Origin: Confluentibacter lentus
GTDB taxonomy: Bacteria; Bacteroidota; Bacteroidia; Flavobacteriales; Flavobacteriaceae
Assembly: GCF_002806995.1 (NCBI RefSeq)
Contig: NZ_NIHE01000009.1
Span: forward strand, 1 to 64,000
Length of the DNA: 64,000 nt
Direction of reading: 5' to 3'
The position numbers and the translations under genes were made by a program. Every line of letters starts with the position of its first letter. Positions within the stretch are counted from its first letter, which is position 1. This document shows, one piece after another, positions 23,683 to 61,141 of this stretch. The notes under the pieces are model-generated. The model was not told the origin of the DNA and did no database searches. It saw only the letters and a list, made by a program, of their open reading frames with translations.

Positions 23683-23727
23683 CAGGACGCTACAGGATGC
23701 GGTAAAAAAAATGAAAATGTAGTTTTG
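23683..23727 (+). promoter_or_regulatory. CAGGATAG-type tandem site with -7 box (site 5)
   Basis: Half-sites CAGGACGCTA (23683-23692) and CAGGATGCGG (23693-23702) follow each other without a gap. A 17-bp spacer leads to a perfect TAGTTTTG -7 box (23720-23727). Spacing matches the four other sites exactly. The half-sites deviate most here, so this is the weakest member. It would drive the TonB receptor and formylglycine-generating enzyme. Confidence 0.65.
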
Positions 23728-23835
23728 AATAGTTATTAAGTGAATTAATGAAAAGAGCCACTTATATTAATACTATTTCCTTTATGCGCTTCATTTGGAG
23801 TTAAAAATCAAACTTGTTTTAGTAATTTAAAACGT

Positions 23836-26348
23836 ATGAATATAAAGAGTATTTTTTTTTTATAGTAACAGGATTATTGTTTTTTAATTCTATCTCAGCA
23901 CAAATTACAGCAAAAATAATTGATGACACAGATAATTATCCATTAGAATACGCCACGGCAGCACTTTACAAACAAGAAGATAAATCGCTTGTTACAGGCG
24001 TTATTACAAATATAGATGGCGTATTTACTATCGAGAATGTGAAAAATGGTCGTTATTTTTTAGAGATGTCTTTTGTGGGTTATACTACTAAAACACTTCA
24101 GGATATTGAAATATCAAAAACTAATATACGTGTAGATTTAGGAATTGTTAAATTAACGTTGGGCAATCAGCTTAATGAAGTTCAAATTAGAGCAGAACGC
24201 GCCACTGTGGTTCATAAAATAGACCGTCAAGTTTTCGATTCTAAAAATTTTCAATCAAGTCAAGGAGGTACTGCTACCGATGTTATAAAAAATCTGCCAT
24301 CAGTAAGTGTTGATGGGTTAGGAGATATAAGTGTGCGAGGTAGCAAAGGCTTTACTGTTTTAATAAACGGAAAACCTACCCAAGGCGATGCCAATACTAT
24401 TTTGGCGCAGCTACCAGCCAATGCTTTAGAAAAAGTAGAGATTATTACAGCACCTTCGGCTAAGTACGACCCAGAAGGAAAAGGCGGTATATTAAATGTC
24501 ATCACAAAAAAAGGAGCTACAAACGGTACCTTTGCACAAATTAATGTGAGAGGCGGTTTTCCATCCATAGAACCTTATGATACAAAAGAAGCAGCACAAC
24601 GTTATGGTATAGATGCCACTTTAAATTCCAAAACAGATAGATGGAATTTGTCCTTTGGCACAAGCTATCAGCGCAATGATAAAACGGGTAGAAGAGAAGG
24701 GGCGTTGAATATTTTTAATCAAGCTGAAAACAAGCAGACCTTTACACCATCTAATGGCGAACGTAGTTCGGATGATATAAGTTACAATACTCGTTTTAGT
24801 GCAGATTATACACCAAATGAAAATGATGAATTTACATTAGGCTTTTTTGCAGGTAAACACACCATAGATAGATTGGCCGATATCACATATTTTGATAACC
24901 ATGCTATTTCACCAATAGGAAGCAATAATAGGCTTTATACATTTTCATATTACAACCACAATTTAAGAACTCGTAAAGGCGATTTTGTTTTGGGTAGTTT
25001 CGATTATGCACATACATTTAATGATGCTTCTAAACTATCAACCTCTTTTTTATATGAATACACTTTTTTAGGAGGACCAACCTATAATGATAACGTAGAT
25101 TCGCCAGCATACAATATTATTTATCAAAGTGAATTTAACACAAATGATAATCCATTACATGGTGTTAGATATAATTTAGATTTTAAATTGAAACCATCAT
25201 CTTTTGGTGTTTTAGAAACAGGCTATCAATTTAGAAACCTAAATCATGATGGTGATTTCAGGTATGAGCGTGATGGTGTTATTGTGCCAGAATTTTCAAG
25301 TAGTATCAAATTGAAAAGAACCATCCATTCAGCATACACACAATTAACGGGTATTAAAGATAAATGGGATTATGCTGCGGGTGTTCGTTTAGAGTCTATG
25401 GATAGAACTTATACCGAATTATTACTTAGTGATATCAATTCTAACGAATATAACTACAATTTTGTAAAATTCTTTCCTTCGGCATCTTTACAATATTCAG
25501 TAAATGATGCTACTAAAATTAAAGCGGCATATAGTAAAAGAATAGAGCGAACTACTACTTTTAAAATGAATAGTTTTGCTGAACGCGAGCATGCCGAGGT
25601 TTTTGAACAAGGTGATAACCGCTTATTGCCAGAATTTATAGATTTGGTTGAATTAGGAATTACTAAAGATTTTAACAAAAATACATCTTTGTTTGCCACT
25701 GTGTATTACAGGCATGTAGATAATGTTATAAATCGAGTAAATACCTTAGCTTATGAAAGTAATGGTGTTGTAATTGATAGCATTTTAAACCGAGTATATT
25801 CCAATGTAGGAAAAAGCAACTCGGTAGGCTTAGAGTTAGGGGCACAATTTAAAGTAACTAAAAATTGGAGTAATTTTATAGGGGCCAATATTTATAATTA
25901 TGCAATTGATGGATTGTTTGTTTTTAGACATCGTGATGGTATTGCCAGAAACTATAATGTGAATACTAAAAGTACAATCTATTCATTTAATGTAAATTCT
26001 ATCTATTCATTTTGGAAAAATGCTACGTTACAATTTACATTTAATTATTTATCTGATGCCAATACGGCACAGGGTAACGACTCTAGGTTTTATTCTCCTA
26101 ATCTAACCCTAAAGAAATCATTCTTAGATGGAAAGTTAGTAGGTACTTTACAATGGCAAAATATAGATATGGGATTATTGAATAGCAACGAGCAAAGCAT
26201 TGCAACATCACGACCAAACCAGTTTTATACCTTTACAAACTACGTTTATGAAGTAGATATGGTTATTTTAAACTTTTCATACACATTTAATAAAGTTAAG
26301 AACAAATCTAAATTTATTGAAAGTGAATTTGGAAAGCGTGAGTTTTAA
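23836..26348 (+). CDS. TonB-dependent receptor (outer-membrane beta-barrel family) with poly-T frameshift
   Basis: The body (from 23877, about 820 residues) is a TonB receptor: carboxypeptidase-like domain (about 5-95), plug (about 110-215, with GLGDISVRGSKGFTVLING and APSAKYDPEGKGG) and a long PF14905-type barrel. The natural start must be the ATG at 23836: MNIKSIFFF followed by IVTGLLFFNSISAQ is a fine signal peptide. However, the T tract at 23852-23861 has 10 T where 11 are needed, so that ATG runs into TAG. Either phase variation, a sequencing slip, or a real null. No STN domain. The formylglycine-generating gene follows 54 bp later. Confidence 0.85.
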
Positions 26349-26402
26349 TTTTATTTTAGAAAGTTAAAACAATTAACAACATATAGAAAACACATCACTA
26401 TA

Positions 26403-27509
26403 ATGAAAGAAAAAACACAGATTAACATTTTAATTTTATTAATTATGATTCTATTTGTTTTTATGAATTGTAAAAATAAAACGAAATCAATTGAAAAAAA
26501 GCTAGAGCCAAATAGACCTGTAATTGAAAAGCCATTGAGTATGAAACCGCCCGATGGCATGGTTTGGATACCTGGAGGTACTTTTTTACAAGGTGCGGTG
26601 CCGCAAGATAACATGGCGATGAAACATGAAAAGCCTCAACACCCAGTAGCTGTAGATGGTTTTTTTATGGATATTACAGAAGTAACCAACGCACAATTTT
26701 CAAAATTTGTTGAACAAACAGGCTATTTAACCATAGCAGAACGTGAGATAGATTGGGAAGAAATGAAAAAACAATTACCAGAAGGCACCCCCAAGCCACA
26801 TGATTCTATTTTACAGCCAGGATCTTTAATGTTCAAAAAGACAAAAGAATCGGTGCCTAATTTATATGATTTTTCACAATGGTGGCGATGGGCAATTGGT
26901 GTTAATTGGAAATATCCAAATGGACCAGACAGTAATTTAGAAGGAAAAGAAAACCACCCTGTAGTACATATTTCATATCAAGATGCACTAGCCTATTGTG
27001 AATGGGCAGGAAGGCGATTACCAACAGAGGCAGAATGGGAATATGCTGCCAGGGCAAATAACAATGCCATATTTTTTTGGGGAGACGAACGGGATAAAAT
27101 ATCGGAAAAGGCAAATAGTTGGGAAGGCGAATTCCCCGTGAATAACACTTTAGTTGATGGGTTTGAAAGAACGGCCCCTGTTAAATCATATCCACCTAAT
27201 GGTTTTGGCTTATACGATATGGCAGGTAATGTTTGGGAATTCACATCAGATTGGTATAATACTGACTATTATAATACATTAGCATCTAAAAAAGATACCA
27301 TAATAAATCCCAAAGGGGCCGATAAGGCCTATAACCCTAATAATCCATATTTGGAAGAAAAAATAATAAAAGGAGGATCCTTTTTATGCAGTGATTCTTA
27401 TTGTGCCAGCTATAGAATATCTTCCAGAATGGGAACAAGTATGGATTCTTCTACAGAACACGTTGGCTTTAGAACAGTTGCTACTCCTGAAATGCTAAGC
27501 TTAAAGTAA
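26403..27509 (+). CDS. Formylglycine-generating enzyme family lipoprotein (sulfatase activator)
   Basis: 368 residues. The signal peptide ends in a lipobox (FVFMNC, Cys about 21). The FGE-sulfatase domain (about 55-362) opens GMVWIPGGTF, continues with VTNAQFSKFV and RRLPTEAEWEYAAR, and ends GLYDMAGNVWEF...GGSFLC. The catalytic Cys pair of true FGEs is present (Cys329 in GGSFLC and Cys334 in SYC), so it should oxidise the sulfatase-motif Cys to formylglycine with copper and oxygen. All sulfatases in the window are of the Cys type. Its position far from them but with the same kind of promoter supports one regulon. A lipidated, exported form is notable. Confidence 0.9.
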   Translation: MKEKTQINILILLIMILFVFMNCKNKTKSIEKKLEPNRPVIEKPLSMKPPDGMVWIPGGTFLQGAVPQDNMAMKHEKPQHPVAVDGFFMDITEVTNAQFSKFVEQTGYLTIAEREIDWEEMKKQLPEGTPKPHDSILQPGSLMFKKTKESVPNLYDFSQWWRWAIGVNWKYPNGPDSNLEGKENHPVVHISYQDALAYCEWAGRRLPTEAEWEYAARANNNAIFFWGDERDKISEKANSWEGEFPVNNTLVDGFERTAPVKSYPPNGFGLYDMAGNVWEFTSDWYNTDYYNTLASKKDTIINPKGADKAYNPNNPYLEEKIIKGGSFLCSDSYCASYRISSRMGTSMDSSTEHVGFRTVATPEMLSLK

Positions 27510-30475: not shown

Positions 30476-31882
30476 TTATCGTTGAAATTGCTTACTAAAT
30501 ACAAGAAACATAACACCACATAGTAACCATGCTGGCAATGTTACAAATGATAAAAACACATCAAATTGAACCGATATAAAATAGAATAAACCAAAACTTA
30601 TAGCCCAAGCAAACAATACTGATTTATTGAACTTAATATTGGCAACTTCAGCATAATTTTTAACAATACCTGCTTGTTCATGAAAGAAATGTTCAAAAAC
30701 TATTACAGCTCCAAAAGGCGCTAAAATAAAACCGTAAAGAGCAACAAAACCTAAAAGTTTCATGGCAAAAGCAGGGAATAAACCAGCAATTGTAGCAATT
30801 GTCCCTGCTAGAATAGTAACCTTTGCTGTTGATAGTTTTGGTAAAATAGCTTGGAAGGCTAAACCCGCTCTGTAAATGGTTGGGTTTGCAGTTGTCCAAC
30901 CTGCCAATACCACAGCAATAATCCCAAAAACACCAATGGCATTATAAGCTAATGGACCTGGTGCTACTGGAGGTGCTTCACCGTTTGATAAAAAGGCTTG
31001 TGCTTCGGGGGAATTTAAATATACTGCATATAGTAAACAGGCTGCTATCCACGCGATGTAATGACCTATATACATCCCCGCAGCGGTAGTCCATCCTGAA
31101 CTTGCTTTTTTTGCAAAACGGAATACTGATAAATCGGACATCCCAATATGCATGGCAGCATTGGCAAACCAAGACCAGATAACAACATGCCAAAACGTGT
31201 ATTTTATTTGACCAGGAAAAGGATCTCTACCTTGACCCCAAATATCCCAAAATTGAGAATAGCTAGACACACCCAATTGGTTTAAGGCAACAACACCACA
31301 AGCTAAAAAAGCCAAAACAATAATAGGGGACATCCAATTGGCAGCTTTAGATACCGTATCATAACCACGTGCTGCGATTATAGATATTACAGCGCCAATA
31401 GCTATTACAATAATAACCCAAGTAGCACCATTGGGAAGTGTATCTTCTAGTTTTGGCATAGGCATATCAAATGGGATACCGACAGCGGTAGCAGATACCG
31501 TTATCATGGAACCCGCTAAAAAACAAAACAAAATACCGTTAGCTAAGTTGTAGCCAGTAACTAAGTTTTTTCCACAAATTTTTTCTAACTGAAAATATAA
31601 AGTCAATCTATTTTTAAAAGCAATTTCAGCAGTTAAATACCTCCAACATAATACGGCCAATAAATTCCCTAATAATAACCCGACTATCAAGTCAAAGGCA
31701 CTAACACCTGCCGTTAAGAACAGTGGTCCAATCATGAATTCCGTACCAGCAGCATGTTCTCCAGCATACATACCTAAAAAGCTTTTCCAACTTTTTAATT
31801 TTGATTGTGGTACGGGTGTTCTTTCAAATTCGCCTCCCGCATTTTCTTCAATTATCTCTTTTTCAATACTTACTTGGCTCAT
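30476..31882 (-). CDS. NCS1-family (cytosine/purine permease-like) transporter
   Basis: 468 residues with about 12 membrane helices and the family opening (WKSFLGMYAGEHAAGTEF; GVSAFDLIVGLLLGNLLAV). It carries the APC/NCS1 fold with WANPTIYRAGLAFQ-type conserved helix 8 residues (TTANPTIYR). The usual NCS1 cargoes are nucleobases and hydantoins, but it is embedded in the rhamnose operon, 34 bp after the lactate dehydrogenase, with no RhaT-type symporter in sight. I infer a role in rhamnose uptake or export of an intermediate. Strict cargo is unknown. Confidence 0.88.
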   Translation of the reverse strand: MSQVSIEKEIIEENAGGEFERTPVPQSKLKSWKSFLGMYAGEHAAGTEFMIGPLFLTAGVSAFDLIVGLLLGNLLAVLCWRYLTAEIAFKNRLTLYFQLEKICGKNLVTGYNLANGILFCFLAGSMITVSATAVGIPFDMPMPKLEDTLPNGATWVIIVIAIGAVISIIAARGYDTVSKAANWMSPIIVLAFLACGVVALNQLGVSSYSQFWDIWGQGRDPFPGQIKYTFWHVVIWSWFANAAMHIGMSDLSVFRFAKKASSGWTTAAGMYIGHYIAWIAACLLYAVYLNSPEAQAFLSNGEAPPVAPGPLAYNAIGVFGIIAVVLAGWTTANPTIYRAGLAFQAILPKLSTAKVTILAGTIATIAGLFPAFAMKLLGFVALYGFILAPFGAVIVFEHFFHEQAGIVKNYAEVANIKFNKSVLFAWAISFGLFYFISVQFDVFLSFVTLPAWLLCGVMFLVFSKQFQR

Positions 31883-31916: not shown

Positions 31917-33065
31917 TTATTTTATTAAATGATTTGGGAAATCTTTTGTGTTTTCGCAACAAAGTTGCTCCATAACTTGTTGTAATTCTGTTTTTAATAA
32001 CGATATGGTATGGTTGCCACCTTTTTTTCCCAAAGCTGAAACACCATACATAAAGGAGCGCCCCATAAAGGTGAACTTTGCACCACTCGCCATGGCTCTT
32101 GCTACATCAGGACCAGAACGGATTCCACTGTCCATCATGACTTCTATTTGATCACCATATTTTTCAGCAATTGTAGCTAAAGGTTTAATAGTTGATTGTC
32201 CTGCATCCAGCTGTCGGCCTCCATGATTAGAAACAATAATACCATCTATTCCCAAGCCAATAGCTTCCTCAGCATCATATTCAGAGGCTACTCCTTTTAA
32301 TACGAGTTTTCCCTTCCACATATCGCGAATGGGTTTTATTTTTTCTTCATTCAACCTGCCGCTAAAGGTTTGATCCATAAATTTACCTAGCTGTTTTAAA
32401 TCCAATCCTTTGGGCATATATGGTATTAGGGTTTCAAAATTTGGTTGTCCGTGTTTTAAGGTTTCTAGTGCCCAATTTGGTTTGCCTAATACTTGTAATA
32501 TATTATTTAAAGACATTTTTGGAGGCATTGCCAAACCGTTTCGGATGTCTCTAGGTCTAAAACCAAAAGTAGGCACATCGCATAAAATAACAAGTACAGG
32601 GCATTCTGCCGCAGCTGCACGATTTATAATATCGTCTCTTAATCTGTCTTCGGTAGGGTGATACAACTGAAACCAAGCTTTCCCTTCTGTAAGTTCACTT
32701 GCTCGCTCAATGCTTGTTGTAGTAACCGTACTCAAAATAAAGGGAATGTTGTGCTCAAATGCTGCCTTTGCTAATATTTCTGGCGAATTGGGCCACATTA
32801 AGCCTTGCAGGCCCACTGGAGCTATACCAAATGGTGCATCATATTCAATACCAAATAATTTAGTTTTAAGTGATGAGCCGTTATGTGCCTTTAAGTAGTT
32901 TGGCCTTAGTTGTACATCTCTAAGTTCAGAAGTGTTTCTAAGTAAATTTACATCTTCGTTACAACCTCCATCTAAATACTCAAAAGCAAATTTTGGGATT
33001 TTCTTTTGAGCTCTAGAACGTAAATCATCAATAGAAGGGTATCGTGTATCAAATTTCCTTGCCAT
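31917..33065 (-). CDS. lldD: FMN-dependent alpha-hydroxy acid (L-lactate) dehydrogenase
   Basis: 382 residues, family length. Oxidises L-2-hydroxy acids, L-lactate here, with FMN and probably passes electrons to quinone. Motifs: the flavin region APVGLQGLMWP, QLYHP, a Lys in the KGVAS segment, the catalytic SNHGGRQLDAG, and a phosphate-binding DSGIRSGPDVARA. It lies 4 bp after the kinase. L-lactate is the product of lactaldehyde oxidation by the SDR half of the aldolase, so this gene closes the route from rhamnose to pyruvate. A glycolate-type substrate is less likely. Confidence 0.9.
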   Translation of the reverse strand: MARKFDTRYPSIDDLRSRAQKKIPKFAFEYLDGGCNEDVNLLRNTSELRDVQLRPNYLKAHNGSSLKTKLFGIEYDAPFGIAPVGLQGLMWPNSPEILAKAAFEHNIPFILSTVTTTSIERASELTEGKAWFQLYHPTEDRLRDDIINRAAAAECPVLVILCDVPTFGFRPRDIRNGLAMPPKMSLNNILQVLGKPNWALETLKHGQPNFETLIPYMPKGLDLKQLGKFMDQTFSGRLNEEKIKPIRDMWKGKLVLKGVASEYDAEEAIGLGIDGIIVSNHGGRQLDAGQSTIKPLATIAEKYGDQIEVMMDSGIRSGPDVARAMASGAKFTFMGRSFMYGVSALGKKGGNHTISLLKTELQQVMEQLCCENTKDFPNHLIK

Positions 33066-33069: not shown

Positions 33070-34440
33070 TTATTTTATTATAAAAGGCACATGCTTTTTT
33101 AGTGAATAGTTCTTTTTAAGGAATTTAGAACTCAATGCTTTATCTGAAATTGAAATGGCAGCTCCTAAAGCAGAGCCCAATGAAGAATCAGTCGTTCTTA
33201 GTTTCATATTCCTAAAATGGTGTGATAGTAGTTTTACAAACAAATCGTTGTCGCTAAAACCGCCATCTATGTATAATCTTTTAATCTTGTCGTCTCCAAT
33301 AACTTCTTTGATGCTTTTTATTTGTAACAGCACCAGTTCCGTCATTAATTGATGGTAAGCATCTTTAAATTTTGAGTAAGGTATTTTAGTTTCAGAAGGC
33401 ATATCGCTATCCGTTAAACTTTCCCATTTGAACATATGTTTGAAATCTTTATTAATTTCAGCATAGGTATCATAATCAAATTTCACATGGCGGTGAAAAT
33501 CTTCAGCAACACCAAAATGCTTATCTAATTTTTTAACCTGAATTTTATATTCATTCCCTAAAAACAAGCGGGTTGCTTTTACAGGTTGACCATTGATACG
33601 CATGTAGTTTATAGAATCTTTATCATGTGTATCTTCAATAATTGGATGGTCTGTAAAAGGGTTTAAAGTGATGCTCCAGGTTCCTGTAGAAACCAAAACG
33701 AACTTTTTCTTAACACTTCTTGCATAAGGTAATAATGCCGAAGAACTATCGTGAATACCCACACCTATATTGATGCGTTTTCCATTATAGTTCATGTTTA
33801 CACTTGTTTCACTAGAAACGATAGTGGGCAATATATTGTTCAGTTCTTCTTTGTAAACCCATGCATGGTAATCTTTTTTAGTATAATCCCAAAGTGCCGT
33901 GTGGCAACCAATACTGGTATATTCACTTAATGGAATACCCGTAAAAACATAACTAATGTATTGTGGTAGATGCAATGAATATTTGATTTTTTTAAAAACT
34001 TCTGGTTTGCTATATTTTAACCAATAAAGTTGTAAGCCTGAATTCAAAAGACTTAAATCGAAACAACCTGTCTTTTTTAAGAATTCTTCTTTAGGACCAT
34101 ATTTTTCTAAAAAGGAATCTATGATACTTTTATCGATAGGTTTTGTATAATTGTATAACGGTGTAAGGACTTCGCCATTTTCATCTAAATGAACAAAACT
34201 AGCACCATAGGTTGAAAAGTTTATGGCTTTTACATTGAATTCCGATGCTTTAAGAATGTTCTCAAACACACTTTTTAACCAATGTTGAAGTGCTGGTAAG
34301 TTTTCGGTAGGAAAACCATCTTCATCTTCAATTTCATCAAAGTGAATGTATTCTTTATAAACCTCTTTATAATCTTTATCAAATAGAAAGAACTTTTTGT
34401 TGGTTTTCCCTATGTCAAATACAGCTGTTACGTATATCAT
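33070..34440 (-). CDS. rhaB: FGGY-family carbohydrate kinase, probable rhamnulokinase
   Basis: 456 residues. Actin-like ATPase fold: N-terminal phosphate loop DIGKTNKKFFLFD (about 8-20), a GTWSITLN segment (about 252), and the C-terminal adenosine motif YIDGGFSDNDLFVKLL (about 390). The sequence differs from enterobacterial RhaB, but its place between the rhamnose isomerase and lactate dehydrogenase makes L-rhamnulose the obvious substrate. It starts 9 bp after the isomerase. Other ketoses (fuculose) cannot be excluded. Confidence 0.88.
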   Translation of the reverse strand: MIYVTAVFDIGKTNKKFFLFDKDYKEVYKEYIHFDEIEDEDGFPTENLPALQHWLKSVFENILKASEFNVKAINFSTYGASFVHLDENGEVLTPLYNYTKPIDKSIIDSFLEKYGPKEEFLKKTGCFDLSLLNSGLQLYWLKYSKPEVFKKIKYSLHLPQYISYVFTGIPLSEYTSIGCHTALWDYTKKDYHAWVYKEELNNILPTIVSSETSVNMNYNGKRINIGVGIHDSSSALLPYARSVKKKFVLVSTGTWSITLNPFTDHPIIEDTHDKDSINYMRINGQPVKATRLFLGNEYKIQVKKLDKHFGVAEDFHRHVKFDYDTYAEINKDFKHMFKWESLTDSDMPSETKIPYSKFKDAYHQLMTELVLLQIKSIKEVIGDDKIKRLYIDGGFSDNDLFVKLLSHHFRNMKLRTTDSSLGSALGAAISISDKALSSKFLKKNYSLKKHVPFIIK

Positions 34441-34449: not shown

Positions 34450-35730
34450 TTATAAACCTGTTGCTACGCTATTTTTCCCTCTTTCTTTTATTAATGAATT
34501 TCTAACATCTAAAGAACGATACGCTTGAATCGGGCTTAACGCACCACCTCGTTCCAATCTCGCTTTTGATAATAATGGACGTACATCGGTTCTATAAGCA
34601 TCTTGCAAAATTTCCTGGCATTTAACCACGTCATTATTTAATTGCGCCGTTTTCAATAAATCTTGATTAACTAAAAGTGCTTTCGCATAAGCTTCTTGAA
34701 TGGCTTCTAATGATTGTATTAAATCTTCCAAAGGATCTTTTACGTTGTGACTGGCATCAATCATCCAAGCCAAATCTGGGTTTTGTGGATTGTTTTCCAT
34801 ACCATAAACCAATTCATTAAAAATAAGGAATAAGGCATAAGGTTTGATGCTTCCAACGGTTAAATCGTCATCACCATATTTACTATCATTAAAGTGAAAA
34901 CCACCTAGTTTTCCTTTTAATTGTAAAATAGAAACAATTTGTTCTATGTTGCTATTTGGAAGGTGGTGTCCTAAATCGACCAATGTAAATGCTTTTTCTC
35001 CACACTCGTTGGCCAGCATTAATGATGCTCCCCAATCTTGAATAACGGTACTATAAAAGTTTGGTTCGTATGGTTTGTACTCAATTAATAACTTCCAATC
35101 ATCTGACACCCCTTGGTAAATAGCTTTTAAACTATCTTGTGTATTTTGAAAAGCCGTTTGAAAATTGTTTTGACCAGGAAAGCAAGATCCATCTGCCAAC
35201 CAAACGGTTAAGGCTTTTGAACCTAATTTATTTCCAATGTTTATAACATCTAAGTTATGCTGAATGGCTTGTTGCCTAACCGCTTCACTTGTACTACTTA
35301 AAGAACCGTATTTATAACTTTCTTTAGCATTTTTCTGGTCTTGAAAGGTGTTGGAATTTACAGCATCAAATTTAATATCCAACGCACTCGCTAATTCTTT
35401 AATTGCGCTGTAATCTTGAGGAATGTCCCAAGGGATATGAAGTGAAACGGCACCTGCAGTTTTAGTTAAAGCATGTAAAATACCAACATCTTCAATTTTT
35501 TGTTCTAAGTTTGAAGGTTCTCCAAAAAACGAAAAACGTCCAAAACGTGTTCCACCTGCACCCAATGCCCAACTTGGAATGGCCACTTGAAAGTCTTGTA
35601 ATTTTTTTATAATTGAATTAACATTCACGCCTTTTTTTGACAAGCTATTTGATAAAAAATCGAAATGTTCTTGGTGCGATTGTAAGTCTTTACTATTTGT
35701 ATCTTGTATTTGATTCGGTACTATTTTCAT
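34450..35730 (-). CDS. rhaI: L-rhamnose isomerase, RhaI type
   Basis: 426 residues: a xylose-isomerase-like TIM barrel of the Pseudomonas-type L-rhamnose isomerase family rather than E. coli RhaA. Metal-binding acidic residues are visible in LIEYKPYEPNFYS, LVDLGHHLPNSNIEQIV and LGGFHFNDSKYGDDDL. It converts L-rhamnose to L-rhamnulose. It is the second gene of the operon (162 bp after the aldolase) and overlaps nothing; the kinase follows 9 bp later. A sugar isomerase of wider specificity is possible. Confidence 0.92.
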   Translation of the reverse strand: MKIVPNQIQDTNSKDLQSHQEHFDFLSNSLSKKGVNVNSIIKKLQDFQVAIPSWALGAGGTRFGRFSFFGEPSNLEQKIEDVGILHALTKTAGAVSLHIPWDIPQDYSAIKELASALDIKFDAVNSNTFQDQKNAKESYKYGSLSSTSEAVRQQAIQHNLDVINIGNKLGSKALTVWLADGSCFPGQNNFQTAFQNTQDSLKAIYQGVSDDWKLLIEYKPYEPNFYSTVIQDWGASLMLANECGEKAFTLVDLGHHLPNSNIEQIVSILQLKGKLGGFHFNDSKYGDDDLTVGSIKPYALFLIFNELVYGMENNPQNPDLAWMIDASHNVKDPLEDLIQSLEAIQEAYAKALLVNQDLLKTAQLNNDVVKCQEILQDAYRTDVRPLLSKARLERGGALSPIQAYRSLDVRNSLIKERGKNSVATGL

Positions 35731-35892: not shown

Positions 35893-37998
35893 TTATCTAA
35901 CAAATGCGTTGGCCATTCCACCATCAACATTTATTATGTTTCCTGTAGATTTATCTAGAATTCCCACGAAAATAAAAACGCCATTTGCAATATCAGCAGG
36001 GGTAATAATTTCATTTAATAAATTACGTTTTGCGTAAAATGCAGGTAATTCTTCAACAGTAATACCGTTTGCTTTGGCTCTACCTTCTGCCCAAGCACCT
36101 TCCCAAATTTTGCTACCTACAATAACGCCATCAGGGTTTACGGTGTTTACACGTACTTTATCTTTTGCTAATTCTGCAGCCAATAAGCGAACCATGTGTT
36201 GTTGTGCCGCTTTTGCGGTTCCATACGCCACATTGTTAGGGCCTGCAACTAATCCGTTTTTACTTGCAATGGAAATATAATCGCCACCTAAGCCTTGTTT
36301 ACGTGTAATTGCAGAGAATTGCTTTGCCAAATCAAACTGACCTTTTACTAAAATACTGTGTAAAATGTTCCAATCTTTATCAGTTGTATCTTCTAAAGCT
36401 TTAGAAATCGCTAAACCAGCACTGTGCACAACTATATCAACACCACCAAACTCTAAACATGCTTTTTTGTAAGCAGAAGCGATAGAATCTGTATTTGTTA
36501 CATCACAAACAGCATACGTAGAAACGTCTCTTTTATAAGTTGCATTGGCTTCAATTAAACTTTGTTCGTTAATATCGGTTAATACAACAACAGCACCTTC
36601 AGCAGCTAATTTATCTGCAATTGCTTTACCAATACCACCACCAGCACCAGTTACAAAAGCAACTTTGCGAGATAACGGTTGTTCTTTTGGCATTCTAGAA
36701 AGTTTTGCTTCTTCTAGTAACCAATATTCAATATCAAACGCTTCTTGTCTTGGTAATGATGTATATGCTGTAATAACTTCAGCACCACGCATCACATTGA
36801 TAGCGTTTATGTAAAACTCACTTGCAACACGTGTAGTTTGTTTGTCTTTTGAAAAACTAAAAATACCAACACCCGGATAAATAATAATTACAGGATTCGG
36901 GTCGCGCATGGCAGGACTATTCGACTTTTTACAAGTGTTGTAATAGTCTGCGTATTCTTTTCTATATTGTTCAAAAGCTGGCACTAATTTTTCAAGAATG
37001 GCTTTTGAATCGGTTAAATCTTCATTTTTATCTAAAGTAAGAACCAAAGGTTGAATTTTTGTTCTTAAGAAATGGTCAGGACAAGACGTACCTAATGGTG
37101 CTAATCTAGCCAAATCATGACTGTTTATAAATTCCAGAACAACATCACTATCAGAAAAATGACCAATCATTCTTTTTTCAGAAGAACATAAACCTCTTAA
37201 TAAAGGCATTAACTGAGCTGCTTTTTCTAAACGTTCTTCTTTAGGAAGACTTTCTAGTTTTTTGCCTCCAAAAACAGAGCCTTTTTCTTTTATTTTGTTT
37301 TCAATATAGTCTGAAGCCATTTCAATAACTTCTAAACTATTCATATAGCATTCATAAGATGTATCACCCCAAGTAAATAAACCGTGGCTACCTAAAACGA
37401 TGCCGCGAATTCCTGGATTATCAGCTAAACATTTTTCAAGTTGTAAACCTAAATCAAAACCAGGACGTTGCCAAGGCACCCAACCCATATTATCACCCCA
37501 AATCTCTTTAGTTACTTTTTCACTGTCTTTAGCGGCAGCAACAGCAATTAAAGCATCTGGATGTAAATGGTCAATATGGGCAAATGGTAACAAACCATGA
37601 AGCGGTGTATCAATAGATGGTGCTTTACTGTCTAAGTCATAAATACAATGGTTAAATAGTTCAACCATACGGTCTTCATCACTTAAACCTCCATAAACTT
37701 TCTTTAAATCTCGCAATCTATCAGTATACAAACCAGCAATTCCAGAACGTGTTAAAGAACCAATATCACCACCGGAACCTTTTACCCACATCACTTCAAC
37801 GTCTTCATTGGTTAAAGGATCTTTTTCGATGGTTTTACAGCTGGTGTTACCACCTCCATAATTTGTGATTTTTAAATCGGCTCCTAAAATGTTTGAACGG
37901 TATAAAAATAAAGCAACTTGGTCATCACCGAATGCATTTGCTCTTTCATTATCCCAAAGATAATCTACGTATTTAAATTTTTTTTCAAGTGTATTCAT
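35893..37998 (-). CDS. rhaEW: Bifunctional rhamnulose-1-phosphate aldolase / lactaldehyde dehydrogenase
   Basis: 701 residues. The N-terminal class II aldolase domain (about 1-420) shows VKGSGGDIGSLTRSG and the zinc-site FAHIDHLHPDALIA and SHGLFTWG. The C-terminal short-chain dehydrogenase (about 440-701) has TGAGGGIGKAIADKL and the YGTAK active-site tetrad. The aldolase splits L-rhamnulose-1-P to DHAP and L-lactaldehyde, and the SDR part oxidises the lactaldehyde to L-lactate. First gene of the operon, with site 1 and a -7 box 25-70 bp upstream. Confidence 0.95.
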   Translation of the reverse strand: MNTLEKKFKYVDYLWDNERANAFGDDQVALFLYRSNILGADLKITNYGGGNTSCKTIEKDPLTNEDVEVMWVKGSGGDIGSLTRSGIAGLYTDRLRDLKKVYGGLSDEDRMVELFNHCIYDLDSKAPSIDTPLHGLLPFAHIDHLHPDALIAVAAAKDSEKVTKEIWGDNMGWVPWQRPGFDLGLQLEKCLADNPGIRGIVLGSHGLFTWGDTSYECYMNSLEVIEMASDYIENKIKEKGSVFGGKKLESLPKEERLEKAAQLMPLLRGLCSSEKRMIGHFSDSDVVLEFINSHDLARLAPLGTSCPDHFLRTKIQPLVLTLDKNEDLTDSKAILEKLVPAFEQYRKEYADYYNTCKKSNSPAMRDPNPVIIIYPGVGIFSFSKDKQTTRVASEFYINAINVMRGAEVITAYTSLPRQEAFDIEYWLLEEAKLSRMPKEQPLSRKVAFVTGAGGGIGKAIADKLAAEGAVVVLTDINEQSLIEANATYKRDVSTYAVCDVTNTDSIASAYKKACLEFGGVDIVVHSAGLAISKALEDTTDKDWNILHSILVKGQFDLAKQFSAITRKQGLGGDYISIASKNGLVAGPNNVAYGTAKAAQQHMVRLLAAELAKDKVRVNTVNPDGVIVGSKIWEGAWAEGRAKANGITVEELPAFYAKRNLLNEIITPADIANGVFIFVGILDKSTGNIINVDGGMANAFVR

Positions 37999-38022: not shown

Positions 38023-38067
38023 TAAAATTAAATTATGAGAATAATGTTTCTATCCTGTACTGTACTG
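38023..38067 (-). promoter_or_regulatory. CAGGATAG-type tandem site with -7 box (site 1, rhamnose operon)
   Basis: On the minus strand: CAGTACAGTA (38067-38058) then CAGGATAGAA (38057-38048), 17 bp, then TAATTTTA (38030-38023). Predicted start of transcription is about 18 bases before the aldolase ATG. The proximal half-site is identical to that of site 2, and the -7 box too. Confidence 0.75.
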
Positions 38068-38342: not shown

Positions 38343-38708
38343 ATGGAAACTATAAACTACCTAGAAATTAACAAAAATTCAAGAATTCCAATGTATCAAC
38401 AAATTGTTGATTCAATAATAAATAACATTTCAAATAGGAACATTGTAATTAACGAGAAACTTCCATCTATTAATTTGATTAATGAGGATTTTTATTTGTC
38501 ACGAGATACCGTTCAGAAAGCCTACAACATATTGAAAGAACGAAACATTATTGTGTCTATTCCACGAAGATGCTATTATGTTACAAATATAGTAACAGCT
38601 CCTAAATTAAATGTGCTATTTTTAATTAATAAATTGAGTACATACAAGATGAGAATTCATAATTCTTTTCTTAACAAAATTGGCTCTGGTTATTTAGTCT
38701 ATTTTTAA
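38343..38708 (+). pseudogene. Truncated GntR-family regulator, divergent from the rhamnose operon
   Basis: 121 residues, against 348 for the paralogue at 49157-50203. The GntR winged helix (about 15-80; NSRIPMYQQIVDSIIN and EDFYLSRDTVQKAYNILKE) is intact in outline, but the wing reads IPRRCYY where the paralogue has IRGKGYY. The periplasmic-binding-like effector domain stops after about 35 residues (GSGYLVYF-stop). It is divergent from the rhamnose operon, the usual spot for its regulator, so it is probably a dead ancestral regulator. It may still bind DNA without an effector. Confidence 0.8.
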
Positions 38709-38725: not shown

Positions 38726-38780
38726 CAGGATAGAGCAGGATAGAGCAGGATAGAAATTGGAGTTGTAACTTTTAATTTTA
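38726..38780 (+). promoter_or_regulatory. Triple CAGGATAG site with -7 box (site 2, sulfatase-GH78 fusion)
   Basis: Three perfect head-to-tail 10-mers: CAGGATAGAG (38726), CAGGATAGAG (38736), CAGGATAGAA (38746). Then 17 bp and TAATTTTA (38773-38780). The fusion ATG is at 38842, giving a 5' leader of about 50 bases. Confidence 0.78.
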
Positions 38781-41800: not shown

Positions 41801-42357
41801 ATTTTGTAAAATCACGAGGCATGGCATGCAGTATTTATGGCTCTCAATATTTAATGGATGGATTGTATAATGCAGGAGAAGCTGATTATGCTTTAGATTT
41901 ATTAGTGAGTACCAATGAAAGAAATTGGTATAATATGATTCGAGTAGGTTCTACTACTTTAGAGGCCTGGGCATTAAGATTTAAGAATAATTTAGACTGG
42001 AATCATGCTTGGAGTGCAGTACCTGCTAACGCAATAACCAGAGGGTTATGGGGAATTCAGCCAAAAACACCTGGTTTTGAGGTAGCTTACATAAAGCCTC
42101 AAATGAGTAAGCTAAAATCTAGCGAAATTGAAGTTCCTACTGTTAGAGGTAGTATTAAAGGGCGATATACTTACAATGGAGCAAGCCTTGAAACATATGA
42201 GATAGAAATACCAGGCAACATGGTGGCAGAATTTTCATTAAATAATTTAAAAGGTAAAGACATTATACATAATGGTCAAAAAGTAGCATTAGCCTTTAAA
42301 ACAATTAGGTTAACACCAGGACAGCATACAATTAAATTGGTTATAAATTCTTTTTAA
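38842..42357 (+). CDS. Secreted sulfatase-alpha-L-rhamnosidase (S1-GH78) fusion
   Basis: 1171 residues. Signal peptide (1-22), then an S1 sulfatase (about 28-455) with the formylglycine motif at Cys79 ([10 protein letters not shown]-x-A-x-R form), metal residues in [14 protein letters not shown] and a [12 protein letters not shown] segment. A GH78 part follows: beta-sandwich (about 470-575, with WDSGQVRSG), then the catalytic (alpha/alpha)6 barrel with [16 protein letters not shown] (about 758), and a C-terminal sandwich. It should desulfate and then cleave L-rhamnose on one polypeptide. Comparable fusions occur in ulvan loci of other marine flavobacteria. Sulfate position is unknown. Confidence 0.93.
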
Positions 42358-43738: not shown

Positions 43739-43751
43739 AAAAGAAACCACT

Positions 43752-44066: not shown

Positions 44067-44081
44067 TTAAGAATCACAAAT

Positions 44082-45236: not shown

Positions 45237-45241
45237 TAAAA

Positions 45242-46729: not shown

Positions 46730-46759
46730 TACAGATTAAAAAAAATTAAGTCTTATAGT

Positions 46760-49156: not shown

Positions 49157-50203
49157 TTACAACGAATCTCTTTCAATTAAATTAAAAGGTACTTTTAGCT
49201 TGTACTTTTTCTTATTTAAAATAATGTTTGCAGCAGTTTCCCCCATTATTTTAAAATCAGTAGATATTACTGTAATTCCCAAAAGCTCTTTAAGAGGTGT
49301 GTCATTATAAGAAATAATGCCGATATCATGCCCTAATTTAAATTCATCTTCTCTTACCTGTTTAACCAAATTAACTAAATCAGCTTCTTCAATAGTAATA
49401 AACAAATCTCTTTTTTTTAATATCATATCGTCATATACCTTGTCTAATATTTCAAAATCCAATTTGTGTTCGATACAAAATTTTCTAAATCCATGCAAAA
49501 TGCGTTTAGGGTAAGGATAAACAGCTTTATCTGGAAAAACTAAAATAATTTTTTGATATTTTTTTATTTTGGAAATTCCTTCAGTTAAAGACCAATATAT
49601 GTCATTTTCAAAATCTTGATAGACTTGTCCTATGGCGTTGTTTAATTCGGGTTTAATATTGTCTAAAATAATTAATCTTTCTTGAGCTATTTTTTCTAAG
49701 GCCTTAATGGCTTTATCAGTAAAACTAATATGTTCTAATGAATCTGTTTTGAAATGAGGCATAATTACAAAGTAGTCGTACGCCAACTTGTTTTTTTCTA
49801 TTAAATTTAAAAACAGTGATTCGTCACAGTGATAAACGTGCAAGTCTGTATGAGAATTAGCTCCAATACTGTTTATAAAATGATTGTAGGTTTTAAGTTT
49901 GTAGTTGCTTAATTTATTTATAAGAAATAAAATATTAACTTTAGAAATTAGCTTAGTTTGAGAGATATAATAGCCTTTGCCTCGTATAGAGGCGATAACG
50001 TTTCTGTCCTTTAAGATGCTATATGCTTTTTCTACGGTATCTCTCGAAAGATAAAATTCCTCACTGAATCTATTTATCGAGGGTATTTTTTGATCCATTT
50101 TGAAATTTCCTTTCGCAATATTATCTATTACAGAGTCAACAATTTGTTGGTATTTTGGCACCCTTGAGTTTTCATCAATATTAACGTGTTTAAATATTTC
50201 CAT
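49157..50203 (-). CDS. GntR-family regulator with LacI-type sugar-binding domain
   Basis: 348 residues, intact. Winged helix (about 10-80; NSRVPKYQQIVDSVIDNIAKG and EEFYLSRDTVEKAYSILKDRN with IRGKGYY), then a periplasmic-binding-protein-like effector domain (about 85-345, with GHDIGIISYNDTPLKELL near the end). Such chimeras sense a sugar or sugar phosphate. It is the best local candidate for the factor that acts at the CAGGATAG promoters, being the paralogue of the broken regulator beside the rhamnose operon. Its own upstream region has a TAAATTTG -7 box (minus strand 50242-50235) but no CAGGATAG site. Confidence 0.92.
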   Translation of the reverse strand: MEIFKHVNIDENSRVPKYQQIVDSVIDNIAKGNFKMDQKIPSINRFSEEFYLSRDTVEKAYSILKDRNVIASIRGKGYYISQTKLISKVNILFLINKLSNYKLKTYNHFINSIGANSHTDLHVYHCDESLFLNLIEKNKLAYDYFVIMPHFKTDSLEHISFTDKAIKALEKIAQERLIILDNIKPELNNAIGQVYQDFENDIYWSLTEGISKIKKYQKIILVFPDKAVYPYPKRILHGFRKFCIEHKLDFEILDKVYDDMILKKRDLFITIEEADLVNLVKQVREDEFKLGHDIGIISYNDTPLKELLGITVISTDFKIMGETAANIILNKKKYKLKVPFNLIERDSL

Positions 50204-51701: not shown

Positions 51702-51746
51702 CATGATAGTACAGGATAGTTAATTTAAATTTAAAAAATAAATTTG
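51702..51746 (+). promoter_or_regulatory. CAGGATAG-type tandem site with -7 box (site 3)
   Basis: CATGATAGTA (51702-51711) then CAGGATAGTT (51712-51721), 17 bp, then a perfect TAAATTTG -7 box (51739-51746). Drives the hydroxyacid-dehydrogenase relic and probably GH127 beyond it. Confidence 0.75.
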
Positions 51747-52333: not shown

Positions 52334-54295
52334 ATGAAACATATAACTACAAAATTGCGAAATAAAACATTTTTTTGTATTACTTTTAGTATCATTCTAT
52401 TTGTTGGATTGACTATTTATTTGTCCTATACTTATGCTGATTTGCCAAAAACAAACACCGATAAAGTCAGTTTAATTCCGCAGACATATGCCCATGCCAC
52501 CGTCAAGCCGTTTGATTTGTCGGAAGCGAAGATTACTGGAGGATATCTAGGTTCTTATGTGGAACGTACCCGCAATATCGGTATACTCGATCTTTTTGAA
52601 AAAATGAAGAAACACGGCAGCTTTAAAAACTTTAAGGTTGTGGCTGAGGGATTGCCTGATAGGCATGTCGGTGGTTTTAATGAGGATGAATGGGTTCATA
52701 AGCTGCTGGAAGCCGCTGGTTATTTTGCCCCTAAAAGTCCATTGATCAGCGATACCTTTCAGCCGCTGATTAAGGATATTCTGGCCTCGCAAGATAAGGA
52801 TGGTTATCTACAGTCTTACTATCAGAATCCAGCCTATCTGAAAGAGCATGGGTCGAATGTCCGTTTTTTAAAAGGAGGGCGCCACGAATTCTACGTATTT
52901 GGACATTTAGCGCAGGCGGGTATGGCCTGGAAAAATGAGGTTGGGGATGACCGGCTTTTCAAAGCATCGCTTCGCTATGCCGATCTACTCTGCGATCTCT
53001 TTGGATCAAAGCCACTTCCTTACAAGTATGATTCTGATCGGGGCGACCGAAAGTATGAGCATCCGAATCACGAGATGGCGATGGTGGAACTGTACCGCAT
53101 GACTGGCAATCGCCGATATCTCGATTTTGCAGCACACACCCTCGACGATTATGGCTTCTGGTCGTTCTCCGAAGTTTCGGGGCATTGTGTTCAGGAAAAT
53201 CTGCTACTCTGCGGTGGTGCAGATGTCTATCTGGAAACCGGAAAACCCGAAATGCTCAAACACCTTGAAGCCATGTGGATGGATGTGGTTGAACGAAAAT
53301 CCTATGTGACCGGTGGAGTCGGCAATGGGGTGGATAGCGAAAATTACGGAAAACCCTATGTGCTTCCTAATCAGCAGAATTATTGTGAAACGTGCGCCTC
53401 CATTTCTAAGGTCTTTTTTGATTGGCGCATGCTGCTGGCCACGGATCACTCTAAGTATGCCGATGATATGGAAAATACGTTTTACAACGCCGTCCTCAGT
53501 GGGGTCAGTCTCTCCGGTACGGAGATTTTCTACACGAACCACGTAGAGGAGGATGGCACCAAAACGAAACAACCTGACGGTCTGCTCGTGGGATGTGATA
53601 TAAGAGACAGTCAACGTAAACCCTATTTTGACGTTAGCTGCTGTGCACCCAATTTTCAGCGGTTGATAGGTTCTCTTCAGCAGTACCTCTTTACTTTAAG
53701 CCCGGACGGTGTACAAGCGCAACTCTATGGTAATGCGGAGCTTAAAACTTCCACGGTGCATCTGCGTGAAACGACCGATTATCCGCGTGACGGACGAATC
53801 CAATTTGATATTCTTGCCGATGCAAAATTCGAACTCTCGCTGCGCATTCCGAAATGGACGGAAAGTACCAGAGTTTTTATTACCGTAAATGGGAAGGAAG
53901 TACCACAAGTTAAAGCAGGGGAATACGTAAAGCTAAATCAATTTTGGAAAAAAGGCGACAAAATTATTCTCGAATTCGATATGAAACCTAGGCTTATAAA
54001 AGGACGTGATCAGGTAGCTGCCGAAAAGGGAAAACTTGCAATTATGCGTGGTCCTTTGGTATATTGTATAGAAAGCCCTGACAATAGAAATATCAATATT
54101 TCAGATGTTGCATTACCGCTAAATACAATTATTAAAGAAGAAAAAACAAACGATCTTAATGGTACTGTACGTCTAAGTGCTCAAGCTTGGGACGTTGTGA
54201 ATCAAAGAGAAGTTCAAATTTCGACAATTCCCTATCATCTTTGGGCAAACCGTGGAGAATCAACAATGAAAATTTGGATACCTTGGAAAAACTAA
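52334..54295 (+). CDS. GH127-family glycoside hydrolase (DUF1680)
   Basis: 653 residues, with an N-terminal membrane/export segment (about 11-32) and an (alpha/alpha)6 barrel with beta-sandwiches. Family marks: NHEMAMVELYRMTGNRRYL, GHCVQENLLLCGGADVYLETG, YVTGGVGN, and the Cys/Glu active-site region NYCETCASISKVFFDWRM with SCCAPNFQR later. GH127 enzymes remove beta-L-arabinofuranose or related sugars; here the target is unknown. Base use changes sharply in the gene: AT-rich up to about 52480, GC-richer to about 53870, AT-rich again. It is followed by a terminator. Confidence 0.92.
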   Translation: MKHITTKLRNKTFFCITFSIILFVGLTIYLSYTYADLPKTNTDKVSLIPQTYAHATVKPFDLSEAKITGGYLGSYVERTRNIGILDLFEKMKKHGSFKNFKVVAEGLPDRHVGGFNEDEWVHKLLEAAGYFAPKSPLISDTFQPLIKDILASQDKDGYLQSYYQNPAYLKEHGSNVRFLKGGRHEFYVFGHLAQAGMAWKNEVGDDRLFKASLRYADLLCDLFGSKPLPYKYDSDRGDRKYEHPNHEMAMVELYRMTGNRRYLDFAAHTLDDYGFWSFSEVSGHCVQENLLLCGGADVYLETGKPEMLKHLEAMWMDVVERKSYVTGGVGNGVDSENYGKPYVLPNQQNYCETCASISKVFFDWRMLLATDHSKYADDMENTFYNAVLSGVSLSGTEIFYTNHVEEDGTKTKQPDGLLVGCDIRDSQRKPYFDVSCCAPNFQRLIGSLQQYLFTLSPDGVQAQLYGNAELKTSTVHLRETTDYPRDGRIQFDILADAKFELSLRIPKWTESTRVFITVNGKEVPQVKAGEYVKLNQFWKKGDKIILEFDMKPRLIKGRDQVAAEKGKLAIMRGPLVYCIESPDNRNINISDVALPLNTIIKEEKTNDLNGTVRLSAQAWDVVNQREVQISTIPYHLWANRGESTMKIWIPWKN

Positions 54296-57764: not shown

Positions 57765-57789
57765 TAGATTCTAAAATTTTAAATCAATA

Positions 57790-59126
57790 ATAAAACTATT
57801 ACAAATTTTTTCATTCATGTGTTATCTACAATTTTGTTGAGTTGTAAATCAAGCAAAAAATCGAATGAGACTAATAAACCAAATATTATTTTAATTTATA
57901 CGATGACATGGGCTACTCAGATTTAGGATGTTATGATGGAGAAATTGAAACACCTAATTTAAATCAACTGCCATCAATGATTGCTTCAGGAAACGAACAT
58001 CCACCTATGCTAAGTTAGATTGGGGAGTAGCAACAATATATTTGCAATGGTACAATTATTTGTTTTATGGCGATGATACCTTGGTAGAAGAGTATTATAA
58101 AGACATGAAAGCATTAACTAATTTTTATCTATCATTTAAAGATGAAAATGTTATCATTCAAGGTGTTATGGGTGATTGGTGTCCGCCAAGTTGGGATAGA
58201 CGATTAAATCCGTATGCTTTGGAATGCGACCCCATTATTTCGGTGAATGCTTATTTTTATCATGTTTTTGGTATTATGGAAGGCTTTGCGAAAATGAAAC
58301 AAGACACAACTTTTGAAGCTCAAATGAAACAAGAAAAAGAAGCTTTAAAACAAGCTTTCAACAAATTTTTTTATTGTCCATTCCAAAAACAGATTTTAAA
58401 TGGTATGCAAGTCAAACGGCCTCGGTAAAGGCGCTTCAATTTGGAATCGTTCCAGATGCCGAAATAAAAACCTTAGTGAATGGCGTAGTTTATGATATTA
58501 CTGAGGTAAAAGTTGAGCATCATTCTACAGGAATTCATGGTATCAGGTATATTTATACGGGTTTAACAAAATACGGAAAAGGCGATTTGGAATATCAAAT
58601 ATTAACAACACTCAAGTTTCCTAGCCAATTCTAATATTTGAACAGTGGTTTTACCACATGGCCAGAGCGTCAATTTGAATAGGAAAATATGGCAGCAGCA
58701 ACCAACTTACTTAACAACCCTATGCATAGTGGTTTTTCAGCGTATTTTTATGAATCTCTTGGAGGTATAAAATCATCTGTAGATGCTGTTAGGTATAAAG
58801 TTTTTACGGTGAATCCGCAATTTCCTACGCAAATTATCCAAAAATCAGTAAAAGTACCCACATCGTTTGGCTATATTCATAATAATTGTGAATTAAAAGA
58901 AACTAATTTCACCATGAATTTAGTAGTGCTGTTTAATACCCAAGCACATTTGGTTTTAACTGAAAAAGAATTAGCTTCTTTAAAAATCAATGGTATAGCT
59001 TTTGAAACTTTTCAAAGAGAAAATAAAACTCAAATTATTAATAATTCTACTATCATTATTGGTTCAGGAGACTATAAGATTGAGTTTTTTAAAATAAAGG
59101 TATGGCGTGTAATTTATGGATTATAA
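57790..59126 (+). pseudogene. Deletion-made chimera: sulfatase N-terminus joined to GH78
   Basis: After a lost start the text reads FIHVLSTILLSCKSS (a lipobox) and KPNIILIY, then in another frame [23 protein letters not shown], which is a sulfatase N-terminus. At about 57970 it goes straight on as the catalytic part of a GH78 ([46 protein letters not shown]), then frameshifts at about 58380, and stops split the rest (VKVEHHSTGIHGIRYIYTGL; NPMHSGFSAYFYESLGGI) to 59126. The GH78 part is different from the one at 44.6 kb. Confidence 0.85.
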
Positions 59127-59160
59127 TTTTTACTGGATATTTTAAAAGTTATATGTTTTA

Positions 59161-60605: not shown

Positions 60606-60861
60606 CATAGTGCCAATTATGTCAATTTTTAAAATCATGCAATCAGTACGTTTCTCTAAAATTTTTACAAAAGAAGTAATAAAAAAAAATGATCTAATCA
60701 GATCGATAGAGAATTCTGGAATTATTGAAAATTAATAGAACAAACCCTTTTAGATTAACTAATACTACGAAGAGTTTCGTCCTGAAAAAAATCACTTAAA
60801 ATTTTTATAAATAGCAGTGCGATTCATTTTTCTCGCACTAAAACTAAATTTAAAAATAAAC

Positions 60862-60881
60862 TCAATTCAATTCAATTCAAT
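60862..60881 (+). repeat. (TCAAT)4 microsatellite and hairpin
   Basis: Four tandem TCAAT units. Just upstream, AGTGCGA (60816-60822) and TCGCACT (60833-60839) form a stem without a T tract. Nothing else is seen in 60606-61096. Confidence 0.6.
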
Positions 60882-61096
60882 GATTTTTTTAATTACACAC
60901 AACGGGTTTTAAATAATATATTATATCCTTTAATTAGAATGTAGTAGTTTAAAAAAAATTATTGCTAAAAATGCCTTAATTAAATAATCGTAGCTTTTAT
61001 CTTAATTTCATTTTAAGTACCCGCTTTAGTTGGTGTAATATTTAGGTTTGTTTTAATAACTAAAACCAGTTTAAATTATGAATATGGCAATTAAAA

Positions 61097-61141
61097 CAGG
61101 ATGGTACAGGATAGATTGCAAAAAAGCATTACATAATTTTG
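61097..61141 (+). promoter_or_regulatory. CAGGATAG-type tandem site with -7 box (site 4, SusC)
   Basis: CAGGATGGTA (61097-61106) then CAGGATAGAT (61107-61116), 17 bp, then a perfect TAATTTTG -7 box (61134-61141). The SusC ATG is 30 bp further on, giving a leader of some 20 bases. Confidence 0.78.

Follow-up and report, generated by a model that had tools for sequence, protein, structure and literature searches.

Tandem half-sites at a fixed distance from the −7 box suggest a GntR–LacI-controlled rhamnose and ulvan regulon in Confluentibacter lentus and other Bacteroidota

The first 64,000 nucleotides of contig NZ_NIHE01000009.1 of the flavobacterium Confluentibacter lentus (assembly GCF_002806995.1; hereafter, the window) contain five promoters in which tandem, head-to-tail 10-bp units are followed, always at the same distance, by a −7 box of the TAnnTTT type (Table 1). 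A comparative analysis of this arrangement across related genomes leads us to propose that the five promoters constitute one regulon, in which a regulator combining a GntR winged helix with a LacI-type sensor domain (encoded at 49157–50203) would activate genes of rhamnose and ulvan utilization; judged from sequence comparison, we assign this reading a probability of roughly 0.77.

All five tandem sites described in a first-pass annotation of this DNA, each with N17 and a −7 box behind it, were confirmed on direct reading of the sequence. The two-unit pattern alone (up to three mismatches) has five matches in the window vs. 0.05 expected from shuffles; these matches represent four places, as the triple-unit site at 38726 is counted twice and the site at 23683, the weakest of the five (5 mismatches across its two 8-bp cores), is not among them. 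Extension of the pattern by N19 and TAnnTTT (again up to three mismatches) returned the same four places from the whole 3.35-Mb genome and none for the reversed pattern. A degenerate pattern (up to two mismatches) finds exactly the five sites in this genome and 0 in the reversed control, although it was composed after the five sites had been seen, so as to admit 23683. An independent test was provided by a weight matrix trained on 129 sites, all from other genomes, which scored the five sites at 38.5, 38.2, 37.4, 36.5 and 30.6 bits, as compared to 10.1 bits for the next-best position in the window and a peak of 19.8 bits over 12 Markov-resampled windows. The shuffle, reversed-pattern and independent-matrix counts thus bear out the original argument that the same spacing would hardly recur five times by chance, and the genome-wide scan for the repeat with its −7 box shows that the motif is not common elsewhere in the genome, being limited to these five sites. 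Within the window, the matrix reveals no site above 10.1 bits before the 49157–50203 gene itself.

Beyond C. lentus, the conserved layout is CAGGATAG-N2-CAGGATAG, 19 bp and TAnnTTT. The arrangement recurs in dozens of related genera; among the 397 family genomes scanned, 57 contain this anchored pattern (up to two mismatches), with 0 matches for the reversed control in every listed genome. When GTDB representatives were scanned for the 18-mer alone, with no demand for a −7 box, 103 loci were returned, mostly from Bacteroidota, and the exact 18-mer sites are followed by TAnnTTT at offset 19 in 35 of 106 cases vs. 0–5 cases at other offsets. A comparable preference is seen in a 444-kb set of sugar loci (three relatives plus the window), which was scanned without requiring the −7 box: at offset 19, a perfect box (5/5 letters) follows 33 of 59 sites and at least 4/5 letters follow 50 of 59, as opposed to no perfect box at offsets 17, 18, 20 and 21 (at least 4/5 letters at 9, 10, 1 and 2 of 59 sites, respectively) and 1–10 of 59 sites with at least 4/5 letters over all offsets from 12 to 27 apart from 19. 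A separate observation concerns three Prevotella loci (L064, L067 and L106), where the sequence flanking the exact 18-mer is shared (CGTCCATCGA..) and offset 19 is without a −7 box; these copies probably lie inside conserved coding sequence.

The composition of the sites was analyzed in a set of 133 sites chosen by their second unit and −7 box. Unit 1 is conserved in this set, and 94% of the boxes have G or A as their eighth letter. First-unit frequencies carry selection, however, since 76 of the 133 sites belong to loci that were fetched for matching the motif. Unit 1 was therefore rechecked in regions that were not motif-fetched. It remains conserved over 27 sites of loci L137–L155, 12 of which lie beyond the threshold of the 397-genome family scan and have C in 83%, G in 75% at base 3, A in 83% at base 5 and G in 83% at base 8 of the first unit; over 14 sites of loci L186–L225, it is still conserved, leaning to CAGTACAG, which is also the first unit of the 38067 site in the window. 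The 19-bp spacer is near background both over the 133 sites and in the 41 sites of non-motif-fetched loci (maximum 0.30 bits), and no −33 element is visible in the spacers of either group. A third unit 10 bp further upstream (up to three mismatches) occurs in just 9 of 133 sites vs. 0–4 in controls, which makes the three-unit site at 38726 exceptional. The sites are directed toward genes, with a same-strand open reading frame (ORF) of at least 100 amino acids starting within 350 bp downstream in 116 of 120 cases and a divergent ORF upstream in 34 of 120.

The candidate reader has an N-terminal GntR winged helix-turn-helix (PF00392, 39.6 bits at a cut-off of 27) and a C-terminal LacI/periplasmic-binding-protein domain (PF13377, 30.4 bits at a cut-off of 26.5). 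A structure model (predicted local distance difference test score 82.5) has LacI, AscG and CcpA among its top Foldseek matches, and a PDB search by sequence returned winged-helix matches only. No Pfam match to an aminotransferase-like C-terminal domain was found in this protein, and its MocR-like NCBIfam matches span only about the first 90 residues.

The distribution of this protein closely parallels that of the motif. Among the 397 family genomes, the close GntR clade (E ≤ 1e-95) is present in 78, the motif in 57 and both in 56 (Fisher 9e-49), while the remaining motif genome (G064) encodes a GntR of 44% identity; these and the following p values treat genomes as independent, which phylogenetically they are not. 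The L-rhamnose isomerase RhaI, present in 91 of the 397 genomes, is strongly linked to the motif as well (56/57) and was used as a control. Of the 91 RhaI-positive genomes, 74 encode the close GntR and 55 of these contain the motif, as against 1 of the 17 that lack this GntR (p 2e-7). Plain co-inheritance with the rhamnose pathway was rejected on this basis, since the motif tracks GntR inside the RhaI-positive genomes. In a class-wide sample, the motif occurs in 4 of 173 genomes (two from the same family and two from other families), all of them among the 11 that have the GntR (E ≤ 1e-60). Physical linkage was assessed in 53 of the 57 motif genomes, those with listed sites: in 46 of them, GntR lies on the same contig as a site, at a distance of up to 20 kb in 33 and up to 100 kb in 42. 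Finally, of 29 genomes with the exact 18-mer (from 30 hand-chosen among the 103 loci, mostly outside the family, with a base rate available only from the class-wide sample), 27 have a GntR homologue at E ≤ 1e-20, the weakest best match being 4.9e-45. No homologue at this threshold was found in Prevotella L036 and L064, the 18-mers of which are without TAnnTTT at 19. The first-pass suggestion that this GntR reads the sites is supported by its co-occurrence with them, and by the co-variation described below, making it the likely reader.

A further line of evidence comes from the operators themselves. With two exceptions, the aldolase/dehydrogenase RhaEW shows 73–92% identity in the loci that contain it, whereas the promoter in front of it varies with the clade to which the GntR belongs. 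In five loci with a GntR of only 39–43% identity (L186, L187 and L189–L191), the RhaEW promoter has CAGAACRC or a near form replacing CAGGATAG (exact in four and with one mismatch in L189); in this diverged-clade variant, CAGAACRC takes the place of the second unit and the 19-bp distance to the −7 box is unchanged. No site was found directly before RhaEW in L188 and L194. Over 20 genomes, six exact variant sites were detected, in five of ten genomes with a diverged GntR (37–44% identity; the other five are without an exact variant), as opposed to none in ten close-clade genomes. Only exact matches were counted, because the five matches with a single mismatch, two of which fall in close-clade genomes, do not exceed the reversed control (8 matches in all). 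The recognition helix (SRDTVEKAY) changes in parallel: residue 58 is V in 7/7 diverged proteins and E in 79 of 83 others, the remaining four having Y or Q. Two loci (L192 and L193) with a GntR of 41–43% identity that has E58 retain CAGGATAC- and CAGGAAGG-type units. As a side observation, Seonamhaeicola loci L102 and L124 have a site with an extra overlapping GATAG, and the GntR of the same locus (33–34% identical) has Y at position 58.

The genes behind sites in other genomes fit a role in rhamnose and ulvan utilization. Pfam domains tallied for 88 of 113 downstream ORFs (the 25 left out include many RhaEW copies, others being long proteins) comprise TonB plug (13), sulfatase (13), class II aldolase, i.e., RhaEW (8), PL28 ulvan lyase (5), GH78 (5), ulvan lyase PLH30 (4) and GH88 (3). 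By BLAST, the 113 ORFs, window copies included, contain 23 homologues of RhaEW, 15 of the sulfatase-GH78 protein and 16 of SusC, although only two SusC homologues besides the window's own reach 70% identity; no orthologues of the TonB receptor, the formylglycine-generating-enzyme (FGE)-type protein or GH127 were found among them. Outside the family, sites precede RhaEW in Pontibacter and Adhaeribacter (L047, L078 and L090). Ten further out-of-family downstream proteins include GH31 (2), GH43, an MFS transporter and a TonB receptor, as well as five that are less expected or unnamed (a radical SAM protein, a fasciclin, a weak sulfotransferase match, a sorting-domain protein and one without a match). 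The expected conservation upstream of orthologous rhamnose genes was found before RhaEW orthologues: in 28 loci of the close GntR clade (L223 was excluded, as it contained no RhaEW), a script allowing up to four mismatches located a site at 24 RhaEW promoters and three more were recognized by eye, namely L198 (box CATATTTG) and L205 and L222 (5 mismatches in the units).

In the mechanism that we propose, GntR winged-helix domains would bind the two head-to-tail half-sites, one helical turn apart on the same DNA face, with the 8-bp cores at about −49 to −42 and −39 to −32, covering the −33 region. These positions assume a −7 box at −12 to −5, where the F. psychrophilum transcriptome puts TAnnTTTG (PMC9723704). 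The LacI-type sensor would hold an intracellular sugar, most likely L-rhamnose or its derivative; L-rhamnose is suggested because it is the intracellular sugar to which most targets lead. The sugar-loaded protein may then position RNA polymerase on the TAnnTTTG box, a role proposed because the promoters show no −33 element, and thereby jointly activate rhamnose catabolism, ulvan-type sulfatases and rhamnosidases, SusC and the sulfatase-activating enzyme. The observed layout, a site overlapping the −33/−35 region at a fixed distance and combined with a poor −33 element, is that of class II activators. Moreover, an activator in contact with polymerase is expected to keep its distance constant to the base at many unrelated promoters, whereas a repressor has no need to do so. 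The earlier idea of one activator at adjacent grooves is upheld as to the shared site, the fixed geometry and the absence of a visible −33 element, while binding, ligand and activation by this protein are inferred.

A number of observations weigh against this interpretation. The bare 18-mer also turns up in records of other phyla, apparently by chance, and the site at 23683 is weak and has no conserved homologue behind a site elsewhere. Of the 78 close-GntR genomes, 22 are without the motif at two mismatches, and in the 11 of those that were fetched, the RhaEW sites are weaker or near misses; one RhaEW promoter in a close-GntR genome (L212) has no site directly upstream. GntR and site share a contig yet are more than 100 kb apart in four genomes, and the joint change of helix and operator is confined to one clade and possibly reflects a single event. 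Furthermore, typical GntR operators are palindromes, even if direct-repeat exceptions exist, and the B. subtilis regulator AraR, built from the same kinds of domain, is referred to as a repressor (PMC4494728).

This last point favors the possibility that the GntR protein binds the sites as a repressor, keeping polymerase off the −33 region unless a sugar causes its release. In the same direction, the title of a reference, the only source here, speaks of a GntR protein repressing alginate genes in Zobellia, and the Bacteroides regulators FucR and ManR are listed as GntR proteins (PMC3878776). We consider repression unlikely, as a repressor site needs no single exact distance over more than 100 promoters and several families, and no −33 element was seen that would let these promoters run alone. 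Duplication of an ancestral promoter, or chance, in either case without a functional site, could be invoked for some flanks conserved between close relatives (orthologous RhaEW promoters). The spacer is, however, almost without information and the downstream genes come from many families; counts far above expectation, with reversed controls of 0 in every listed genome of both the family scan and the class-wide sample, refute this explanation, which we regard as practically untenable.

Another regulator co-inherited with the rhamnose/ulvan loci, such as the AraC-family protein encoded in the window (14868–15749) or an unlinked hybrid two-component system (HTCS), is a distinctly improbable reader. 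An AraC monomer has two helix-turn-helix motifs reading adjacent major grooves. AraC-type activators are also known to control Bacteroides rhamnose genes and to bind direct repeats (PMC3870299, PMC3878776). Nevertheless, among the 57 motif genomes only 30 encode an orthologue of the window's AraC (E ≤ 1e-80), and both genomes of the same genus have this AraC, while motif and GntR were not found in them at the thresholds used. Bacteroides AraC/HTCS operators have a periodicity of about 21 bp, and the operator change described above follows the GntR clade. The AraC at 14868–15749, the only one examined, was accordingly rejected as reader (p 0.01 within RhaI-positive genomes, besides the incomplete coverage of motif genomes).

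Several known systems resemble the proposed one in part. PhoB/OmpR-type class II activators replace the −35 element by tandem head-to-tail half-sites of 10–11 bp, but they belong to the response-regulator family and act on another promoter type. GntR/LacI chimeras of the AraR type have been described (PMC4494728): B. subtilis AraR, like the 49157–50203 protein, has an N-terminal GntR winged helix and a C-terminal GalR/LacI sensor and controls a sugar regulon; the predicted operator here differs in being a head-to-tail direct repeat at a fixed promoter distance rather than the palindromic GT...AC operator of the GntR family, and the protein is predicted to be an activator. FucR (BT1272) and ManR (BT2103) are GntR-family sugar regulators of Bacteroides, i.e., of the same phylum, which respond to other sugars, FucR having a single target operon (PMC3878776); a similar operator is possible for them. 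MocR-subfamily regulators (GabR, TauR and PdxR) combine a GntR winged helix with direct-repeat boxes and activation of divergent operons (PMC5320631), but differ by an aminotransferase-like C-terminal domain and by characterized repeats two or three helical turns apart. A precedent as to the operator is RhaR of the DeoR type, which controls the same pathway, including RhaEW, through two imperfect direct repeats of 10–11 bp; both it and the AraC-type RhaR belong to other protein families, the AraC type having a 21-bp periodicity (PMC3870299). No DeoR helix-turn-helix was matched among 38 window ORFs scanned, and the word "GntR" has 0 occurrences in the main text of that paper. The first-pass annotation knew of no published motif of this form, which given the DeoR precedent does not hold for the general layout; a CAGGATAG-type regulator motif or the regulator-site pairing was indeed not found in the literature searched, which is weak evidence, as supplements and most subscription papers were outside its scope.

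Table 1. Promoter sites and genes discussed in the text (window coordinates; genes named by Pfam and NCBIfam profile matches).
Feature	Position	Strand	Remarks
Site of the rhamnose operon	38023..38067	-	CAGTACAGTA CAGGATAGAA N17 TAATTTTA; −7 box 38030-38023; RhaEW start 37998
Triple-unit site before the sulfatase-GH78 gene	38726..38780	+	three units, N17, TAATTTTA; −7 box 38773-38780
Site heading a broken dehydrogenase-like remnant, then GH127	51702..51746	+	CATGATAGTA CAGGATAGTT N17 TAAATTTG; −7 box 51739-51746
Site before the SusC gene	61097..61141	+	CAGGATGGTA CAGGATAGAT N17 TAATTTTG; −7 box 61134-61141
Weakest site, before the TonB receptor and FGE genes	23683..23727	+	CAGGACGCTA CAGGATGCGG N17 TAGTTTTG; −7 box 23720-23727
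GntR winged helix + LacI/PBP1-type sensor protein	49157..50203	-	348 amino acids; predicted reader of the sites
RhaEW, rhamnulose-1-phosphate aldolase/lactaldehyde dehydrogenase	35893..37998	-	behind the 38067 site
L-rhamnose isomerase RhaI	34450..35730	-	NCBIfam match E 1.9e-150, below NCBIfam's own cut-off
FGGY sugar kinase (rhamnulokinase-like)	33070..34440	-	rhamnose operon
FMN-dependent dehydrogenase (L-lactate type)	31917..33065	-	rhamnose operon
Putative transporter of the rhamnose operon	30476..31882	-	weak NCS1 match
Sulfatase fused to GH78 alpha-L-rhamnosidase	38842..42357	+	behind the 38726 site
GH127 glycoside hydrolase	52334..54295	+	profile match
SusC/RagA outer-membrane transporter	61171..63999	+	behind the 61097 site; extends beyond the window end
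TonB-dependent outer-membrane receptor	23877..26348	+	behind the 23683 site
FGE-type sulfatase-modifying enzyme	26403..27509	+	behind the 23683 site
Truncated second GntR	38343..38708	+	121 amino acids; divergent from the rhamnose operon

With respect to the genes of the window itself, the site at 51702, originally described as the promoter of a GH127 unit, was confirmed, but its first gene was not: a broken stretch of about 51.85–52.2 kb (a remnant within 51830–52230), which has stops inside and by eye resembles a D-2-hydroxyacid dehydrogenase, precedes GH127, the start of which is 588 bp past the −7 box. Short ORFs with partial alginate-lyase, GH78 and sulfatase family matches at 42750–48170 and 58042–59126 also represent broken genes, and the sugar locus appears to be undergoing decay, with promoters that can still be recognized. 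Tandem GntR paralogues adjoin the rhamnose operon in two relatives (L143, 5816–8095, and L150, 12854–15058), 67–68% and 79–84% identical to the window's protein, and perhaps sense different sugars; the truncated second GntR is perhaps a remnant of such a tandem paralogue. A weak IS1595-type transposase match (50449–50889) adjoins the 49157–50203 gene. A tyrosine-type integrase (21291–22577) is located between tRNA-Pro and tRNA-Leu (20985–22910) directly before the sugar locus, and RhaI and GntR have no match at E ≤ 1e-60 in the two genomes of the same genus, for which reasons the locus may be an acquired island. The window also contains a second regulatory unit composed of an NtrC-type response regulator and kinase (3800–6210) and a SusC-like/SusD pair with FecR anti-sigma and ECF sigma genes (7568–14805).

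Overall, coordination of ulvan enzymes at the level of regulator and operator in marine Bacteroidota is poorly described in the literature covered here. A code tied to one regulator would predict the sulfatases, lyases, transporters and activating enzymes of one response across dozens of genera, and it suggests an intracellular monosaccharide as the signal. We see roughly even odds that the sites exemplify a conserved promoter class of Bacteroidota in which two 10-bp half-sites, arranged head to tail at a distance of exactly 19 bp from the −7 box, allow a GntR–LacI chimera acting as an obligatory activator to replace the −33 element; the half-site recognized would depend largely on residue 58 of the recognition helix (E58 reading CAGGATAG and V58 reading CAGAACRC). 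If true, this would provide a readable code for prediction of rhamnose/ulvan regulons from sequence alone, as well as a defined system for studying how promoters with the unusual −7 box depend on an activator.

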